A stretch of DNA of 21,520 nt, from positions 1-21,520 of IMG/VR virus record IMGVR_UViG_3300047323_000119, one strand, 5' to 3'. The position numbers were made by a program, and so were the translations under genes. Of the stretch, positions 197 to 21,520 are shown piece after piece. This stretch comes from a virus. Positions within the stretch are counted from its first letter, which is position 1. Each line of letters starts with the position of its first letter. The notes below the pieces were generated by a model. That model saw only the letters and a list, made by a program, of their open reading frames with translations, did not search any database and was not told the origin of the DNA.

Positions 197-197
197 T
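179..197. repeat. Tandem TGTCCCAT repeats, 11-bp period
   Basis: TGTCCCAT occurs at 179-186 and again at 190-197, one helical turn apart; the second copy touches the stop codon of the UmuD'-like gene. I did not notice this octamer elsewhere in the window. Short phased direct repeats at a prophage end are typical of arm-type sites of tyrosine integrases, so this is a candidate integrase arm-binding region. That reading is inference, since no integrase gene is in the window. Confidence 0.35.
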
Positions 198-517
198 CAG
201 ATAATCGGCCGGCTGTCTTCGTGATAGTTCGAAACCATGAAGGTCACCTTACCCAGCACTACGATATCCTCCATAGAAGCCCCCTCAAGCGTTTCTCCGT
301 CGCGGGTGATGATTGATTGCCCCATCAGCTTGCCTACCGCCCTCTCGCCGTACAGCTCGAAACAGAGCACATCCCCTGACATTGGCTTAGAGCCGGAATC
401 CATCAGATGAAGAATCCCGTCAATTTCAAACATGGTCACGCTGGGACGCACCTGGCAGATCACATTCAGGTCGATCCGCGATTCAACGTAGTCCTGCGCC
501 GGTGATGGAAATCCCAT
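197..517 (-). CDS. humD: HumD/UmuD'-like SOS mutagenesis protein, active site lost
   Basis: This 106-residue protein aligns with the mature (cleaved) form of UmuD, the accessory subunit of translesion DNA polymerase V. Its first residues, MGFPSPAQDYVESRIDLN, match UmuD from Gly25, exactly where RecA-stimulated self-cleavage (Cys24-Gly25) would leave UmuD'. About 13 residues around the catalytic Ser60 (GDSM motif) are absent: the segment runs PSVTMFEIDG straight into ILHLMDSG. The region around the lysine of the Ser-Lys dyad remains as GERAVGKL. It therefore needs no processing and cannot self-cleave. Phage P1 HumD is a known functional UmuD' homologue. The ATG at 515-517 follows the upstream stop codon after one base and has a G-rich ribosome site (GGGGGG, 8 nt away). 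A longer in-frame extension is rejected because it overlaps the upstream gene and lacks homology. No umuC is present, so a host UmuC would be the partner. Confidence 0.8.
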   Translation of the reverse strand: MGFPSPAQDYVESRIDLNVICQVRPSVTMFEIDGILHLMDSGSKPMSGDVLCFELYGERAVGKLMGQSIITRDGETLEGASMEDIVVLGKVTFMVSNYHEDSRPII

Positions 518-518
518 A

Positions 519-761
519 TCAGTGCCCCCCGTTGTTTGGATTGAACAGGTGGAACGTCCGGCGCTCACCCTCTTCCGTCGAGATGTCGCGGAAGCAGCCC
601 TGATAGTGCTCAATCCACCGGTTAGCCTCAGCCAGGGTGAAGTCGTGGTTTAGCTTCGTCAGATGCTCCACGAAGTCGACCGTGGTAACCGTTCGCTTGC
701 CGTTCGGCGCTATCCTGATGCTTGCTCTGAATGCTGTTGCTATGTCGTCTCTGCGTGCCAT
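519..761 (-). CDS. Small SOS-operon protein of unknown function
   Basis: An 80-residue protein encoded first in a two-gene unit with the UmuD'-like gene and placed directly behind a LexA-controlled promoter. I do not recognise a named family. It is mixed charge, with a probable helical N-terminus (MARRDDIATAFRASI), a TVTTVDFVEHL segment and an aromatic FHLFNP tail. There is no signal peptide, membrane segment or cysteine cluster beyond one Cys. The ATG at 759-761 has a GGGG ribosome site 7 nt upstream; an in-frame TTG four codons earlier (773) is possible but less likely. The one-base gap to the UmuD'-like gene suggests translational coupling and a linked role in the damage response of the prophage. 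Possible roles are modulation of RecA, polymerase V or prophage induction, all inferred from position only. Confidence 0.7.
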   Translation of the reverse strand: MARRDDIATAFRASIRIAPNGKRTVTTVDFVEHLTKLNHDFTLAEANRWIEHYQGCFRDISTEEGERRTFHLFNPNNGGH

Positions 762-933: not shown

Positions 934-2142
934 ATGTCAGACCGTAAAATACACAGCCTTGATGGTTTGCGCGGCTTAGCTGCATTGTCAGTGGTGTTCT
1001 CTCACATTTTCACAATATTCTATTCTTACCTGCATATTGGATTATTATCAAAGCAGGTGCCTGGCAAGTATGCAGAACAACTTTTTAATAGCCCCTTTAC
1101 TTTCTTTTATAAAGGAAATTCAGCAGTAATGCTTTTCTTTGTGATGAGTGGCTTTGTTTTGTCATATTCCTTGATAAGAAAAGGCGTGAGTGAGTCATTC
1201 TTGAAAACAGCGGTCTTAAAAAGATACATCAGATTAAACATTCCTGTTGCCGCTTCAATTTTGATTTGTGCGTGCCTGATGTATGTGCATGCCTTCACCT
1301 TCAATGATACGGGAGTTAAGTTGCCCCTTTCATTTGCATATACTGGAGAAGTCTCATTCATTGAGGCTATAAAACAATCCTTGTATGGGGCAATAATATT
1401 TGGTAAGCAGAACTATAACTACGTTCTTTGGACAATAAAAATAGAGTTTTTTGGTTCATTACTGGTTTATTTTTTGATCGTATTTTTTGCCAAAAACATA
1501 ACGGTATTGAGAATAATATGCCTTATGATAACCATCACAACGATTTTTGGGGAGGGGGCCCAGATCTGGTCTTACGGGCTGTTTACTGCGGGTATTTTCC
1601 TGGCCACGTTCAATGTTTATAGCGGGAAAAGCAAGTGGAGGCTATCACTCTGCGTTGTTTTATTGGTGGTTGGAATTTATTTATTTGGATTTAATCCAGA
1701 TAGTAGGTCTTATCATTTTTTACAGAATAAGATTGATTATGTGACTATTCACTGGATGTTTATACACTCTAGAGATTTGATGCCAATATTTGGCGTACTA
1801 ATGATATCATCATGTATCGTGATAAATAACAACATATTCAAAGCGCTGTCCTTAGGTGTATTCCAATGGCTGGGGAAAGTTTCTTTCTCTGCATATCTTA
1901 TACACACAATGTTAATAGCCATTATAGCCCCTTATGTTGTTACTTATTTTGGAACTGGCGTCCATGCCATTATTGCGTGTATTGCCTTGGTAATTCCTGC
2001 AACTCTTTTTGCCTCTCACTACTTTTACCTGTATATAGACAAGCCTGCTACAGAAAAAGCAGGTGGTATTGCTGCAAAAATAGATATGTTATTTTCATCA
2101 AAGAGAGTCAATAATTCGGATGGAAGCGAGATAGTAAGTTAA
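934..2142 (+). CDS. Acyltransferase-3 family membrane protein (O-antigen/surface glycan acetylation)
   Basis: A 402-residue integral membrane acyltransferase of the Acyltransferase_3 (OafA/OAc-like) family, which moves acetyl groups onto surface polysaccharide. Family signatures in order: HSLDGLRGLAALSVVFSH with Asp10, Arg13 and His24; FFVMSGFVLS at 68-77; an arginine-containing KRYIRLNIP at 96-104; LWTIKIEFF at 165-173; WLGKVSFSAYLIH at 312-324; and YIDKP near 367-371. About ten hydrophobic segments are evident. GAGG at 924-927, 6 nt before the ATG, sets the start. A weak plus-strand promoter may be TTTAAG-17-TATCAT (858-886). The gene is visibly AT-rich compared with the tail genes, lies on the opposite strand, and its TAA interlocks with the convergent stop codon of the last tail gene. 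This is the usual picture of a lysogenic-conversion gene, probably altering the O-antigen or receptor; the substrate cannot be told from sequence. Confidence 0.85.
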   Translation: MSDRKIHSLDGLRGLAALSVVFSHIFTIFYSYLHIGLLSKQVPGKYAEQLFNSPFTFFYKGNSAVMLFFVMSGFVLSYSLIRKGVSESFLKTAVLKRYIRLNIPVAASILICACLMYVHAFTFNDTGVKLPLSFAYTGEVSFIEAIKQSLYGAIIFGKQNYNYVLWTIKIEFFGSLLVYFLIVFFAKNITVLRIICLMITITTIFGEGAQIWSYGLFTAGIFLATFNVYSGKSKWRLSLCVVLLVVGIYLFGFNPDSRSYHFLQNKIDYVTIHWMFIHSRDLMPIFGVLMISSCIVINNNIFKALSLGVFQWLGKVSFSAYLIHTMLIAIIAPYVVTYFGTGVHAIIACIALVIPATLFASHYFYLYIDKPATEKAGGIAAKIDMLFSSKRVNNSDGSEIVS

Positions 2143-2354: not shown

Positions 2355-3679
2355 TATGCATACTCCCATATAATAACCACGCCATTTGCCCCTTCGCTAC
2401 CGGAATTTCCAGACCTGTTGAAGGCATATCCTCCACCTCCACCTCCGCCGTATCCTTCTCCTCCATATACTGTAGTGGTGTTATTGGCAGGGCTTAATCC
2501 ACCTGATCCAAGTTGAGAACCACCCCCGTTGCCTGGTAGAACGCTGGTTGTACTCAAGCACGCTCCATTAGTTGATGCCCCACCGCGGATATTTAATAAA
2601 TTACCTCCAGTCGCTACGCCGCCCAAACTCCCCGTGGCTGAGAATGTTGGTGCTACTTGAGCCTGCGATATTCCACCGCGACCGCCATTAGCTACAATCA
2701 AGGAGCCAAACGATGAAAGGCCTCCATCACTACCATTAGTTGGAGCCAGATTACCTCCACTTCCACCTAAGCCCACTGTAATAGGTATGCCTCCGGAGAA
2801 TCCTGTTGTTAGGCGAGATTTAGCATATCCCCCGCCCGCCCCACCATTACCCATAGAGACAGTCGAACTTCCAGCAGAACCAATGCCACCTGAACCACCA
2901 CCTGCTGCCTGAACCTCTACCACAACTGATTTGGTTCCTGGGGTGGGTGAATAGGTTCCACTACTAGTGAATGTCTGTGTTCCTATTAAGCTACCCGGAG
3001 AAAATGAATTTGAAATATTTACACCATCTCCCACCACATTAGCGTTTGAACCAGAAGCTATAGATACGCCCGTGCCAGAGGGTGTTTTTATGGTCACGCT
3101 AAACGAGCCGGTAGTGTTATTAATTATCTCCCATCGCTTGAGCCACGCAGGCACTACAATGTTGATATTGGAGGTGAGCGCGCCAGCAAGAGTAATTCTA
3201 TCTTTCGAAGCTTGAAGTGTTGTTAGCGTGACGCTTGAGCCAGCCAGGCCAGTTATGGCCGTTACACCATAAGATCCGGATGGTACCCACCCAGTCAAAG
3301 CTGAGGTAGTGTTTTCAGGGTTAGCAGTGTTGCCATCCGTTGTATTTAGCCAGAATCCGTCAAGAGTTGAGTTTGGAACTCTTGCCCCCTTAGGATACCC
3401 TGCTATTAAGGTATTGAATGAGCTGCTGAATGGGTAACCACCACCCGCTTGCCCCCAGCGTATTGCGGACGTTATGTCATTTAACACGCCGTTGAAGTCC
3501 GTACCAAAGGGGGGGACTCCACCCGCCGCCAATGGCGTTCGCGTGAGAGGTGGGAAGCCATCAGTATATGAGGCGCGACCGGCCGTTAAGCCAACCTGAG
3601 AGTCTGTTGGAATATCCTGCTTTGCCCCCGCGTCCGCGAAAGGAACCGGAATTAATTTAGGTTGTGAACTAATTTGCAT
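2354..3679 (-). CDS. Tail fibre with glycine-rich C-terminal adhesin domain
   Basis: A 441-residue receptor-binding fibre. Residues 1-120 form the conserved attachment region of enterobacterial phage tail proteins (PFADAGAKQDIP, SYTDGFPPLTRTPLAAGG, then a DGFWLNTTDG segment). Residues 120-240 are a Ser/Thr-rich beta region. From about 247 (FTSSGTYSPTPGTKSVVVEV) begins a glycine-rich domain with repeated GGxGG blocks, including seven glycines in a row near 430, closing with GVVIIWEYA, as in polyglycine-sandwich adhesins such as the S16 gp38 tip. The glycine runs usually carry the variable, receptor-contacting loops. The start is the Met at 3679, whose ATG overlaps the end of the preceding gene by 11 bp and has AGGA 8 nt upstream; the in-frame extension to 3748 is read-through of the neighbour's sequence. 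Confidence 0.85.
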   Translation of the reverse strand: MQISSQPKLIPVPFADAGAKQDIPTDSQVGLTAGRASYTDGFPPLTRTPLAAGGVPPFGTDFNGVLNDITSAIRWGQAGGGYPFSSSFNTLIAGYPKGARVPNSTLDGFWLNTTDGNTANPENTTSALTGWVPSGSYGVTAITGLAGSSVTLTTLQASKDRITLAGALTSNINIVVPAWLKRWEIINNTTGSFSVTIKTPSGTGVSIASGSNANVVGDGVNISNSFSPGSLIGTQTFTSSGTYSPTPGTKSVVVEVQAAGGGSGGIGSAGSSTVSMGNGGAGGGYAKSRLTTGFSGGIPITVGLGGSGGNLAPTNGSDGGLSSFGSLIVANGGRGGISQAQVAPTFSATGSLGGVATGGNLLNIRGGASTNGACLSTTSVLPGNGGGSQLGSGGLSPANNTTTVYGGEGYGGGGGGGYAFNRSGNSGSEGANGVVIIWEYA

Positions 3680-4343
3680 TTTGTATTCCTGAGTCAGGGA
3701 AGAATGTTCCGCTGTCGAATGGGGAAAGGTTTGATTCGTTAAAGCCAAAGGTGTTGTTGAAGTCGAGTGACATGATGCTCACGCTGACGCCTGCAGGTTT
3801 GGCGATCGCATTTGAGTTGAGCAGGATGGCCCACTCTACCGGCGTCAGGTTGAAGCCAAAGACATAGCTCATGGACATGACACCGGTAATGGCTACAAAA
3901 GTGTCACCCTGGTCACCGAACAGGTAATAGAGGGCTTTGTTCAGCGATGGTATAGAGCAGTCAGTGATGTTCGCCATCGCCTTAGCCATGATCAGCTTTC
4001 GGTATCCATCGTCAGCCAGCCTGACGGTTGAGGTTAATTGCACACCCTCAAAGAAAGGCGCCTCATCAAAAGGTTTTGGTGAGTCGTCACTGGTGCTGAT
4101 AAATGCTTCATCAAAGCCGAAATATGTCGCCGCCTCACGAACGTTAAGCAACCTTGAAACGCCAACTACCTTCCCCCACACATCCAGGCCGTAACCGGTT
4201 GCTGTTGAAACATCCCATATGGCCGTCAGGAATTCGTCGTTGAATTCCGTCATGTCCATTGAGGTGTTGAAGGTTTCAATCAGGCTTCGGATGTTGGGGC
4301 TGGCGGCGTATTGCGTGAGGATCGTGTCTTTCACGTTCTTCAT
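3669..4343 (-). CDS. DUF2612-family tail/baseplate protein
   Basis: A 224-residue protein matching the DUF2612 family, the counterpart of P2 gpI/Mu gp48, which sits at the outer baseplate wedge and links the fibre to the gpJ-like protein. Visible features are the N-terminal ILTQYAASPNIRSLI...F, the central LDVWGKVVGVSR motif typical of this group, and YRKLIMAKAMANITDCSIPSLNKALYYLFGD. The ATG overlaps the stop of the gpJ-like gene by 4 bp (ATGA). Its position, between gpJ and the fibre, is the standard order in contractile phages. No truncation is apparent. Confidence 0.8.
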   Translation of the reverse strand: MKNVKDTILTQYAASPNIRSLIETFNTSMDMTEFNDEFLTAIWDVSTATGYGLDVWGKVVGVSRLLNVREAATYFGFDEAFISTSDDSPKPFDEAPFFEGVQLTSTVRLADDGYRKLIMAKAMANITDCSIPSLNKALYYLFGDQGDTFVAITGVMSMSYVFGFNLTPVEWAILLNSNAIAKPAGVSVSIMSLDFNNTFGFNESNLSPFDSGTFFPDSGIQNAN

Positions 4344-17246: not shown

Positions 17247-18563
17247 TTAGAAACCTCGTTTCAGTTTGCCGGCGGTCGGGAAAGCTTTCTCGAACTCGTC
17301 AGCGGAAGCGGAATCCTGAGCAATGACAGGACGTTTATTTTCTTTGTTCTTGATGGCCTGATTAACCAGCGATCGGTATGCAGATGGGTGAACACCTTCG
17401 ATATCCACTTCGCATTGCTCAAGCGCAGTGCGGTAGACGTCTTCAGCGGAGTCCATTGCGATCACATCGCCAATTAGTGGGCGAACAGCCTGCTCAGCTT
17501 CACGCACGGCGCGGAAATTCTCAGCAGCCTTGCGAGTTGCGCTGTCAGAGGCCAGACGAATAGCAGAGTCCATAGCGGTCTTGGAGACCTTGTCGTCTTT
17601 CTTATCGTCTTCTTCATCTTTGTTTTCGTCTTCAGCAACGGCCGGCGACAGAGCGGCAGAGATTTTGGCGATCAGCTCTTCAGAAACACCGGCTTCACGC
17701 AGCAGAGAGATAATCGACTCGTTGTCGTCATCCCCTGTTACCTTTGGCTCGTCTTCTGGCTCAACACCATCGGATGACGCTTCGATGATTTCTACCAGCT
17801 CTTCCGGTTCCAACTCCATATCGGCAGCCAGGCGGGTTTTGTATTTGTTGGCAACGGCCTGAGCGATAGCTTTAGTTGACTTGTTCGCATTCAGGATGGC
17901 GGTGAGGTCTTTGGGTGCAGCATCCTGAGCCAGGCGCGGCTTCAGAAACGCTCCCAGCGCGGCACGGATGGCAACGCCTTTGCGGTCTAACTTCATGTAT
18001 TTAAGCTCCAGTGGGAGAGAATCAGCGACCAATACGTCGCTACCTGCGCGGCCAGTTTCGACCAGTGCAACGTGGTTCCCGACAATGTCACGCATGATGC
18101 CGTCAAACACTTCGTCATCAGGCGTGGTGCCGGAAGTCATGTCAGCCCTGTACTGGTACGAGGACGACAATTCTTTTTGTTCTTCAGTCTCGATACCCGC
18201 GATCGCCGAGTTATCCCAGACGGACAAGCCGTTACAGAGATAGGTGCCATCGAAATCAGAACCAGAGTGAGTCGTACCTACGCGGTATTCGCGAGGCGGG
18301 TCTCCGGGGAAGTCAGGGGTATGAATGCAAAGAACAGGAATGTTGTTGAATGTTGGTGCGGCTTTCTTCAGTTCATCGGGGTGGCGCCAGAGCCGGTAAA
18401 TCTTGTCCGGGTCAAGGCCTAGCGCATCCGCATTGGGAATCTCGCGTCCGTAGTAGGGGCAGACATTCGCCTTGCTGATATTGCTCTTAGTGACCTGAAG
18501 CCTGCCGTTACCATCGAATGAGCGCACGGATGCGCGGTCAAACGCTAACCGTTCGATAGTCAT
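17247..18563 (-). CDS. DUF2213 prohead protease fused to scaffold
   Basis: A 438-residue maturation protein. Residues 1-190 are a DUF2213 serine protease domain: [33 protein letters not shown] (131-136, probable catalytic Ser) and [13 protein letters not shown] with His164, the usual Ser/His pattern of the prohead proteases. Residues 190-438 form a charged, helical scaffold with acidic stretches ([32 protein letters not shown]). The fusion would release itself from the procapsid by cleavage after assembly. The gene follows the terminator of the inserted 163-codon gene by 24 nt and has no promoter of its own that I can see. Confidence 0.8.
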
Positions 18564-18587
18564 GTGCTTTCTCGGATTGCGGGCAAT

Positions 18588-18611
18588 AAAAAAGGCCGCC
18601 TAAGCGACCTT
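18588..18611 (-). terminator. Rho-independent terminator after the inserted 163-codon gene
   Basis: On the minus strand AAGGTCGC (18604-18611), loop TTAG, GCGGCCTT (18592-18599; one T:G pair), followed by six T (18588-18593). It lies five bases after the stop codon of the inserted gene and 24 nt before the DUF2213 start. Confidence 0.85.
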
Positions 18612-18615
18612 GTTT

Positions 18616-19101
18616 TTACAATGATTGTACGTCTATCTTGCTTTGTATTTCTTTATATAAGGCGTCAAAGAATGGATTGAGATTCACTTGTCCATTGATT
18701 TCTTCACAAGCAACATCATAAAGCATTGATGCTGTTCTAATGTTAAGTGAGGTTCCATTTATATCAGGTTTTCTTGCAATAATTTTCAGGCTAAGGGATA
18801 ACTCACTTTGCATAGAATTTTGTCCCGGTAGTTGCATGAAAAGAATGAAAGATAGGTCTCTCCCATCCTTATCATACTGCCAGTATGCGCACTGCTCGAA
18901 TTTGCCGTCTTTAATGCGCCCAACCTTTATGATACCAATTTTATTGCTATCTAGATCAAGTGCTTCGTTGCTTTCCATGCCTAGATATTCACTGAACTCG
19001 GCACCGAAGTTTTTGGCAACTTTGTGCAGAGATTCCCAGTAGGTTTTTTCACTTTCAATGCGTTTGGTAACTTCAACTCTCAACTGTTCGAACTTAGTCA
19101 T
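18616..19101 (-). CDS. Inserted gene of unknown function (moron-like), 161 residues
   Basis: A soluble, probably cytoplasmic protein of 161 residues (163 if the Met at 19107 is used). I recognise no domain. An N-terminal helix (MTKFEQLRVEVTKRIESEKTYWESLHKVAKNFGAEFSEYLG) precedes a beta-rich middle (IGIIKVGRIKDGKFEQCAYWQYDKDGRDLSFILFMQLPGQ), and a second strand set and helix at the C-terminus. It separates the head morphogenesis gene from DUF2213 and has a good promoter and terminator of its own; the base composition is visibly AT-richer than its neighbours. These are the marks of a moron. A role in defence against other phages or in lysogen fitness is plausible only by position. The ribosome site GGGGT lies 3 nt from the first ATG and 9 nt from the second, so the start is uncertain. 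Confidence 0.7.
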   Translation of the reverse strand: MTKFEQLRVEVTKRIESEKTYWESLHKVAKNFGAEFSEYLGMESNEALDLDSNKIGIIKVGRIKDGKFEQCAYWQYDKDGRDLSFILFMQLPGQNSMQSELSLSLKIIARKPDINGTSLNIRTASMLYDVACEEINGQVNLNPFFDALYKEIQSKIDVQSL

Positions 19102-19142
19102 TAGCATTTACCCCAGAGAGCCATCGAATTAATGGCACATAA

Positions 19143-19171
19143 ATATTACTGAAGTGTTAGCGCGCTGCCAA
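19143..19171 (-). promoter_or_regulatory. Promoter of the inserted 161-residue gene
   Basis: On the minus strand TTGGCA (19166-19171, 5 of 6 to consensus) is spaced 17 bp from TAATAT (19143-19148). The -35 element starts directly after the stop codon of the head morphogenesis gene, leaving a leader of about 35 nt before the inserted gene. Confidence 0.65.
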
Positions 19172-19987
19172 CTAAATGCCTGGTATGACTGGGGACCATG
19201 TGCAGCGGCAGTTAATCTCTTCACCGGGAAGAGTCCACTTACCATCGAGAAAGAGCCCCTTCGACAGATCGAACTTCTGTCCATCAGCCTTAACGTGCGA
19301 GGGGCGCGGCTCTTTACCTGCGTGAGAGTGTCGCCAGACTCCATCAGTGATGCCGAGTGACTGCTGCCTTGCCGTCTGCATAACTGATGTGGCTTTGTTG
19401 TTCTGGTCACGCGCGATGAGTGCTGCTCTGCGGCGTGTTATGCCAAATCGCTTTTGCAGCTCATCAGTCAGCGTCGAAAGGTCGCGTCCGCGGCTTACCG
19501 ACTGCATGACCAGCGTTTGAACCTGCGTAAGGTATTGCTCAGGGATGCTGGTAATCAGGTTCACGTTTTCCGTGATGGTCGCCTGCAATGCGTTATTCAT
19601 CGCTGGCGTCATCTTGAATGGAACAGTGAACCCTGCCGTTTCCAGTGCGTTATAGAGCGACACGTCAGAGTTCTTCTGTGCCTGCCCTGCGAACCGGTCA
19701 GCCAGCTTTGCGGCCACATCATCGAAGCGCTTCTGCCAGCGCGCGGCTAACTTCTTCATCGCGTCACGCATAAACACCGCGGGCGAAGCGTCCATTGCCA
19801 TAGCGCCGGATGCCCGATAGTTAGCCTTCAGCCAGTAGGTCACCGAGTCGTTCATTTCAGCGATCAGCTTATCCAGCTGTCTGCGGTACCAGGATTCGAC
19901 TCCGGCATTAGGCCTTGTCGGGCGGATCGTCTTCGGAGTCTGCTTCTTCGTCTTCGTCGATGTCACCTTCTTCGATTTCGAGGTCAT
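19172..19987 (-). CDS. Head morphogenesis protein, MuF-like
   Basis: A 271-residue minor head protein of the Mu F/SPP1 gp7 type, carried inside the procapsid near the portal. The C-terminal domain shows ARDQNNKATSVMQTARQQ, then HSHAGKEPRPSH (His220, His222, His231) and EINCRC (Cys260, Cys262), the conserved MuF motif set. The N-terminus is lysine/threonine-rich (about 1-27) and precedes VESWYRRQLDKLIAEM. The reading frame starts inside the portal gene and overlaps it by 80 bp, which is long for this operon; the ribosome site is weak, so the basic leader may vary. Confidence 0.8.
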   Translation of the reverse strand: MTSKSKKVTSTKTKKQTPKTIRPTRPNAGVESWYRRQLDKLIAEMNDSVTYWLKANYRASGAMAMDASPAVFMRDAMKKLAARWQKRFDDVAAKLADRFAGQAQKNSDVSLYNALETAGFTVPFKMTPAMNNALQATITENVNLITSIPEQYLTQVQTLVMQSVSRGRDLSTLTDELQKRFGITRRRAALIARDQNNKATSVMQTARQQSLGITDGVWRHSHAGKEPRPSHVKADGQKFDLSKGLFLDGKWTLPGEEINCRCTWSPVIPGI

Positions 19988-21431
19988 CGCTTAAGTCCAG
20001 TGAGTGATAAGGGCTTTCAGGGTCATCAGCAATCTTCTCGCGAACTTCATTGGCTGAGAGCGCACCGTTCGTTATGTAGACCGCATCTGTGTCAGCATCA
20101 ACCTTGCGAATATCTGCTCTCTCCTTCGCGCTCATCTCATAGAGAGGCTCAAACTCGAAATAGATATCAGGATCGATGTCACCGAACTCAGAAAGCTGAA
20201 TAACGTCCATAACTCGCTTCAGAGGCGACTTGAACATTGACTGCTGCAGTGAGTGGATGTAGTCGTAGAAAACGCGAATCTCGCCATCTGACGAAGCATT
20301 CAGCCCGTTTGGGGTGATGCCAAGCAACTTAACCAGTGGGATGCTGGAAACTGCCGCCATTTGCTCCTGAGATTGAGCCTGAAGCGTATCAAGTCCACTT
20401 AGTGGAGCGTTGACGAATTCCACCGTTTCCGGGCTTGTTGCGTCGTTGTCTTTCGCGAAAGCGCCACGGTTATCTCGACAGCGGTTGAACAGGTCGAGGC
20501 GGGCCAGTACTGAATCCGCGCCACCACCCTGCAATACCGTGCTCATGTTTGTGCCGATCACCGGGATACTGAATGAGTGGATCATGTCGCTGACACTGTC
20601 ACGCGTGCGAAGCCAGTTGTTGACGTAGGGCTCAGCAATCTGAACCAGAGACAAGCCGCGAAAGTTATACGATGCTTTCAGCAGGTCTGGCACCTGACGT
20701 GACACGAAGTCAACCATGCGGCTGGCGTGCACCGTCTTACCCATAACAAACCACTCAGTTGGTTTGTAGAAGTCCGGGCTTAACGGATTCTGCGCGTTGT
20801 AAACGCCGGGATAAGTCCAGACCGGTTCGATGACCTGAAAGCCTTTCAGGCTACCCTTTGCGATCTTCTTATCACTAATGAACAACTTGCTTTGCAGCTC
20901 GTTATCATCAGTCCAGGCAGATACGTTTTTTGGTGACAGGACGTCGATATAAATCTGGCCACCGCCAAAGTAACCGTCATGTTCAGCAGCCTCACGAAAC
21001 TTATCACGGACGTTGAAGCACTCCAGCGCATCGGTAATCTGCTTTACACGCTCTGATTTATCTTCATCGCCGACAGTCTTAAGCTTTATCCACTTTCGAG
21101 TCATCTCTTCGGCTATCGTGCCTACCATCTTGCGGTATTCAGGCTTCTGCGCCATCGCCGCCAGATAGGGGTAGCCGGGGAATGAGTCCAGCGTCCCATA
21201 ACCCATGCCATAAGCATCATTCAGCGCGCCGTAGTCCGTTGAGTCCATCGCAAGAATGCCGCGCTCTATTGCGGCAGGGATGACGCCTTTAGGTGGCTCA
21301 TAGCGCTGAAATTCACATGGCGGCTTTGGGTGGATTGCTGCGACCGCTTCAGGATTAATCTTCATCTGAACCTTTTCAGGCTCTTTCACCGGCTCAGGCG
21401 CGGCGATTTCTTTTTTCTTAAACCACCACAT
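19908..21431 (-). CDS. Portal protein (DUF1073)
   Basis: A 507-residue portal subunit of the DUF1073 family, the dodecameric ring through which DNA enters the head. Characteristic stretches are MDSTDYGALNDAYGMGYGTLDSFPGYPYLAAMAQKPEYRKMVGTIAEEMTRKWI, then GGGQIYIDVLSP, YNFRGLSLVQIAEPYVNNWLRTRDSVSDM and SSIPLVKLLGITPNGLNASSDGEIRVFYDYI. The C-terminus is acidic (EEGDIDEDEEADSEDD), a typical terminal tail. The ATG at 21429-21431 overlaps the terminase stop codon (TGATG) and has AGGAG 8 nt upstream. In some databases this family's N-terminal region is named after Acb1; I see no Acb1 catalytic pattern here. Confidence 0.85.
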   Translation of the reverse strand: MWWFKKKEIAAPEPVKEPEKVQMKINPEAVAAIHPKPPCEFQRYEPPKGVIPAAIERGILAMDSTDYGALNDAYGMGYGTLDSFPGYPYLAAMAQKPEYRKMVGTIAEEMTRKWIKLKTVGDEDKSERVKQITDALECFNVRDKFREAAEHDGYFGGGQIYIDVLSPKNVSAWTDDNELQSKLFISDKKIAKGSLKGFQVIEPVWTYPGVYNAQNPLSPDFYKPTEWFVMGKTVHASRMVDFVSRQVPDLLKASYNFRGLSLVQIAEPYVNNWLRTRDSVSDMIHSFSIPVIGTNMSTVLQGGGADSVLARLDLFNRCRDNRGAFAKDNDATSPETVEFVNAPLSGLDTLQAQSQEQMAAVSSIPLVKLLGITPNGLNASSDGEIRVFYDYIHSLQQSMFKSPLKRVMDVIQLSEFGDIDPDIYFEFEPLYEMSAKERADIRKVDADTDAVYITNGALSANEVREKIADDPESPYHSLDLSDDLEIEEGDIDEDEEADSEDDPPDKA

Positions 21432-21520
21432 CAAATTCTCCTGAGTTGATTCGGGTCTATAGCCATAGGCGCGCGACCTGAGATCAGGTTGTCGTCAATT
21501 GCATCCATCCACGTATCGAT
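21431..21520 (-). CDS. Terminase large subunit, C-terminal fragment
   Basis: The last 29 residues of a minus-strand gene that continues beyond the right edge. They read IDTWMDAIDDNLISGRAPMAIDPNQLRRI, followed by TGA sharing one base with the portal ATG. The position before the portal, the coupling, and the general look of the C-terminus (NL..G..P.AIDP) suggest the ATPase/nuclease that packages DNA. The catalytic domains are outside the window, so the call rests mainly on gene order. Confidence 0.6.
   Translation of the reverse strand: MDTWMDAIDDNLISGRAPMAIDPNQLRRI

Follow-up and report, generated by a model that had tools for sequence, protein, structure and literature searches.

A small gene lying between two phage head genes, here called gene X, very probably forms, together with the terminator behind it, a moron cassette that occupies a recurring slot for cargo in the late head operon of temperate enterobacterial phages. 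Judging from sequence, we put the probability of this reading at about 85%, a figure that covers the cassette and the slot, not a defence function. A moron layout had been claimed in a first-pass annotation of this DNA. That claim is well supported because the slot is found empty in some phages and with varied inserts in others, and because X is AT-rich, is followed by its own terminator, has an independent history and is absent from most relatives.

Moron discovery usually proceeds gene by gene; the term "moron" itself reportedly goes back to Juhala et al. in 2000. A fixed slot combined with a short DNA tag at the end of the cargo would instead list candidate lysogeny genes, RNAs included, from sequence, and these could be tested as a set. 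The setting for such a list is many temperate enterobacterial phages, and X is the most frequent cargo we found. The arrangement would also show that cargo can be exchanged within a structural operon without harm to the head genes, which would be protected by the terminator while crossovers could take place safely in the shared tag.

A cargo slot between two head genes

The window, meaning the whole stretch of DNA analysed, is a 21,520-base IMG/VR virus record. In it a portal gene (19908–21434) precedes a head-morphogenesis gene (19172–19987, minus strand; phrog_324), and the minor and major head protein genes come after a DUF2213 head maturation protease gene (17247–18563, minus strand; phrog_2229). 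Between these left and right flanks we confirmed the open reading frame that the first-pass annotation had placed there, gene X, at 18616–19107 on the minus strand. X shares the strand of the late genes and has a ribosome-binding site. It encodes 163 amino acids from its first ATG and 161 from the second (19101, minus strand), which is the start common to its relatives. GC content is 0.386 in the slot but 0.539 and 0.557 in the genes on either side.

The two head genes are normally adjacent, as had been proposed: in related phages only 19–34 bp separate them. The gap is 31–34 bp in Klebsiella phages and one E. coli prophage whose flanking proteins are 70–83% similar. In L012, the closest relative, the protease is 99% identical and the gap is 19 bp measured by protein ends. 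The blastn match between the window and L012 ends at 19185 and restarts at 18566, with 25 nt in L012 instead of the 618-nt stretch at 18567–19184 of the window. Comparison of relatives with and without the insert, which the first-pass annotation had suggested, thus finds L012 empty and unrelated cargo in other relatives.

Fetching loci by their protease yielded 67 distinct slots, of which 29 are empty, 7 short and 31 filled. The short slots measure 61–130 bp, and five of the seven contain the terminator. Where protease identity is at least 70%, the terminator is present in 14 of 19 filled slots and in none of 17 empty ones; it also occurs in 5 of 6 short slots, with little else inside. Pooling the loci fetched by protease and by terminator gave, among the matches listed, 151 distinct slots with 144 candidate cargo ORFs. 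These group by similarity into 67 clusters, a number that we quote as about 65 because a few ORFs are likely spurious. X forms the largest cluster, with ten distinct members among the matches listed; other cargo includes HNH endonucleases and many short proteins without a family. Cargo GC is 0.429 against 0.546 and 0.561, and lies below protease GC in 93 of 94 filled slots. A PADLOC search with ten other proteins carried as cargo in this slot gave no convincing match.

Some slots contain RNA-like sequences. In L032, positions 3612–3732 of the same slot hold a tRNA-like RNA with a score of 40.1 bits against RF00005 (threshold 29) and with a 66-nt stretch between its D and T arms, against 17 in the model. 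A TAATAT string stands just upstream of it, and ARAGORN makes no call; the RNA is possibly a functional decoy carried as cargo. Two weaker matches fall below threshold. One, to selenocysteine tRNA (L026, 3837–3927; 26.8 bits, threshold 47), lies directly behind a TATAAT string and ahead of the shared terminator; the other, to int-alpA RNA (L023, 3569–3633; 25.5 bits, threshold 35.8), precedes a 93-amino-acid cargo ORF. Tandem cassettes occur as well: in L116, L184, L220 and L223, X and its terminator are followed by a second small cargo gene and then by the protease.

Gene X has a history of its own

Far from occurring in essentially all relatives, which the first-pass annotation would have counted against a moron, X is present in 6 of 48 whole related records, always in the slot. 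Eight further X loci each lie between the same two genes with the terminator behind. Among the phages with an X homologue, ST11-VIM1phi8.1 carries annotated genes for CI, an integrase and an antitermination protein. We found no X by tblastn in plasmids, no X DNA by blastn in E. coli complete genomes and no X in scans of genome contigs.

Divergence sets X apart from its neighbours. Across five phages, dS ranges from 1.29 to saturation for X, compared with 0.22–0.54 for the protease and 0.53–1.10 for the head-morphogenesis gene. In one pair (L014 and L018) the proteases are 97.7% identical and X 49%. The dN/dS of X stays below 0.2 wherever dS can be estimated, and X therefore encodes a selected protein. 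Since synonymous sites are close to saturation or past it in X and not in its neighbours, X moves independently while under purifying selection. Since the slot in relatives is either empty or occupied by dozens of unrelated genes, X is probably passenger cargo and not part of the particle, and it probably serves the infected bacterium or rivalry among phages.

A shared terminator marks the right-hand joint

The terminator behind X consists of the stem-loop AAGGTCGCTTAGGCGGCCTT (18592–18611, minus strand), with an 8-bp stem, followed by TTTTTT (18591–18586). The first-pass annotation had called it strong, and its stem and six T residues exceed chance both by shuffles, with one exact match in the window against none expected, and by conservation in more than 100 other contigs among the matches listed. 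Folding taken alone gives z = −1.75. The stem-loop is conserved in 126 distinct segments among the matches listed, and as far as the loop it is repeated exactly behind unrelated cargo.

Conservation extends past the terminator itself. The terminator together with the linker to the protease start codon, TATTGCCCGCAATCCGAGAAAGCAC (18564–18611, minus strand), is common to unrelated cargo, and we read it as the right-hand exchange joint. The terminator and about 15 of the next bases recur behind unrelated cargo in the same slot and also before portal and tail genes. Scanning IMG/VR with a 26-base part of the terminator and linker found at least 120 stretches. Conservation sets in sharply at the base preceding the stem and fades some 35–47 bases on; the search pattern partly chose this stretch, though not its left end or the bases beyond the pattern. 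The DUF2213 protease stands directly behind the joint in 65 of 101 loci read among the matches listed; in the remainder the joint precedes a portal gene or further small cargo genes, and one locus is too short to tell. Second copies occur in eight loci among the matches listed, some of them before tape-measure genes.

Five loci (L220–L224) illustrate how the joint may work. Their X genes are 96–100% identical in DNA and share the same terminator and linker, immediately after which the sequence continues in four different ways, two of them into proteases of different types and two into small cargo genes. As near-identical X genes are followed by different genes just past the linker, the joint looks like an exchange point. 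From these sequences we infer that exchange proceeds by homologous recombination within the joint. A complete swap would then involve recombination in the 3' end of the head-morphogenesis gene on the left and in the terminator and linker on the right.

Several loci depart from the usual arrangement. The joint lies elsewhere in the late operon in L105, L106, L115, L126, L144, L155, L156, L158, L160 and L197, as well as in L153, L161, L200, L201, L169 and L177; the sites are before a DUF1073 portal gene and, where a locus has the joint twice, also before a tape-measure gene or another late gene. Eleven loci (L038–L043 together with L046, L049, L050, L067 and L077) carry the terminator with no recognisable cargo, and may be remnants of cargo loss or landing sites. 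In L020 (about 3509–4000), the terminator opens the slot on the left, adjoining the head-morphogenesis gene, and more sequence lies behind it.

X may be a soluble binding protein

The first-pass annotation had recognised no family for X, and here it needs correcting: X matches phrog_2446 (E 1.2e-12), its residues 3–158 aligning to positions 1–155 of the 158-position profile. All seven members of the first X alignment match phrog_2446 and five also match phrog_5091; PHROGs v4 annotates both as of unknown function. Searches of Pfam, NCBIfam and PADLOC with X returned sub-threshold matches only. Among these, FCH (E 0.023) and JetC, the best PADLOC match (E 0.022, 10.8 bits; a local match to part of the protein), were taken as chance. 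PDB sequence profiles gave nothing meaningful for X, and Rfam gave nothing above threshold on the cassette.

AlphaFold models X confidently, with a pLDDT of 88.9 and a pTM of 0.83, as a long N-terminal helix, seven strands and a C-terminal helix. For a family member about 22% identical, the model (pLDDT 89) has the same order of elements. Foldseek found no match at E ≤ 0.001 for the two models in PDB and BFVD. In a further comparison with VIA, the Med17 C-terminal domain, actin-capping protein and, for the first model, frataxin came up with best Z scores of 6.7–6.8, and we did not use them because such values are also given for models that have no relatives. Seven residues are invariant in the ten-member alignment (A3): M1, Y21, W22, L40, G62, F89 and C131, in the numbering of its first sequence. 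They do not look like a catalytic site, and a soluble binding protein is our best guess from the predicted structure.

What might such a protein do? By analogy, our leading guess, held at somewhat less than even odds, is defence against other phages. We favour it because assembly blockers encoded in late operons, such as Tab and Tai, fit the anatomy of the cassette best, and repeated replacement by diverged X alleles fits a gene in conflict. For a defence family, PADLOC, Pfam and NCBIfam gave no match of weight, and there was no confident fold match. In the mechanism we propose, the predicted binding protein, with its long helix, beta-sheet and C-terminal helix, would block a phage or host component, and the lysogen would resist other phages as it does with Tab and Tai. 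Tab, a moron of Pseudomonas phage JBD26, blocks virion assembly (PMC10884400). Like X it is a small orphan protein of a temperate phage, and its gene is set in the late operon with structural or packaging genes on both sides. Unlike X it has 83 amino acids and is encoded between terminase genes on the opposite strand (PMC10884400), and its defence activity is proven and comes with an anti-Tab partner, whereas X has no recognised partner; the two are likened by description and not by sequence. TaiEcA of phi80, which belongs to the Tai systems that inhibit tail assembly, is a small prophage-borne protein whose expression in the lysogen has been shown (PMC11364771). It too is likened to X by description, since it differs in size and place and X matches no defence model.

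A lysogen-expressed moron could instead be aimed at the host, altering its physiology or gene regulation and not its resistance to phages; we consider this less likely than defence. All the evidence for the cassette applies here as it does to defence, and the predicted fold, binding-protein-like with no obvious catalytic site and with aromatics and a glycine among its invariant residues, suits such a role. Host-directed morons of late regions are documented, P22 pid for instance derepressing the host dgo operon (PMC3573128), and moron functions are diverse (PMC9928086, PMC7067206). However, the repeated swapping of one X allele for a highly diverged one is more typical of conflict genes, and X has no known host target.

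Proposed expression of the cassette

Upstream of X lies a promoter-like string, TTGGCA (19171–19166) and TAATAT (19148–19143) with a 17-nt spacer (19143–19171 in all, minus strand), whose −35 hexamer begins at the base immediately past the head-morphogenesis stop codon. The first-pass annotation described this string as a promoter. Its sequence and its place beside the stop codon are as described, but its agreement with consensus does not exceed chance. A scan of the 5.5-kb region found 3 promoter-like sites against 4.3 expected, the pair is equalled or beaten by 12.5% of shuffles of the upstream stretch, and a score of 9/12 is reached in 6 of 94 filled slots against 8.4 expected. On the scan and the shuffles we rejected it as a statistically strong promoter.

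Its position is nevertheless kept in four close relatives. L014, L015, L018 and L053 each have a −35/−10-like pair with a 17-nt spacer at the same position beside the stop codon. Across them 3 of 6 and 4 of 6 hexamer columns are invariant, compared with 6 of 17 in the spacer, most of which has changed. In a second X clade TTGA also directly follows a TAG stop codon, and in X relatives with another type of head module the upstream sequence differs, in part with no clear promoter. We think it likely from these patterns that X has a weak constitutive promoter of its own. Between the string and the gene there may also be a leader hairpin, GCCATTAATTCGATGGC (19120–19136, minus strand), in the 5' untranslated region; it folds in the window and in L014, has a stem of different sequence in L053 and is weak or absent in L015 and L018.

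We propose that a lysogen transcribes X from a putative start belonging to the cassette and that this transcript halts at the terminator, so that the silent head genes would not be read. During lytic growth, antiterminated late transcription would run through the terminator. What speaks most for a separate transcript is the conserved terminator, which would stand idle if X were read only by antiterminated late transcription.

The same argument weighs on another account, in which X is an accessory gene of late lytic growth, such as an anti-defence factor or an aid against competitors in the same cell, expressed by read-through from the late promoter with the promoter-like string an accident. 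X does lie on the late-gene strand and has a ribosome-binding site, the string does not exceed chance, and several other cargo ORFs begin a few bases behind the head gene with no obvious promoter. Yet a terminator kept right behind the cargo would be useless if only antiterminated polymerase read X, and four relatives retain the promoter-like pair in its place and with its spacing even though their X genes are synonymously near or past saturation. We regard this account as unlikely. A minor virion or head-assembly protein, which the location of X and all homologues found between the head-morphogenesis and protease genes might suggest, is very improbable and was rejected, as L012 lacks X with its flanking genes intact, 29 of the 67 slots have no insert, elsewhere the slot is taken by unrelated genes, by an endonuclease or by a tRNA-like RNA, and X does not track or co-evolve with the head genes.

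Relation to known systems

A moron encoded in the late operon remains the preferred reading of the X cassette. Under the definition used for lambdoid and P22-like phages (PMC2629481), X has the features of insertion between normally adjacent genes, absence or replacement in relatives, a terminator of its own and a deviating base composition. As in those morons, an extra gene stands between conserved late-operon genes and is absent or replaced in relatives, with its own terminator, AT-richness and apparently independent expression, which for X is putative. The survey of P22-like phages places morons at only one site in the morphogenetic cluster (PMC2629481). In contrast, the X slot lies inside the head genes and serves dozens of cargo clusters, and its terminator and linker are found again behind unrelated cargo at several sites of the late operon. 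The anti-phage hotspots of P2 and P4 (PMC9122126) likewise sit between two conserved phage genes and turn over small cargo at a high rate. They differ in lying beside cos and in holding many recognisable defence systems of 1–5 kb (PMC9122126), whereas the X slot holds mostly single small genes, ten of which gave no convincing defence match when tested. In the open-access papers searched we found no description of a multi-cargo slot inside head genes with a shared terminator tag.

These comparisons allow a broader and more speculative proposal, which we hold only tentatively. The terminator and linker, about 45 nt, may be a reusable docking joint through which single-gene cargo, both proteins and tRNA-like RNAs, is pooled and exchanged at several fixed late-operon sites in temperate enterobacterial phages; most of this cargo, X included, would then be unrecognised lysogen-protection factors.

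The window holds two more genes of interest past its tail-fibre genes, likely further cargo of the same phage. One (934–2142, plus strand) encodes an acyltransferase akin to the O-antigen acetylases of phages (phrog_3333, phrog_6705); the other (197–613, minus strand) encodes a UmuD-like protein.
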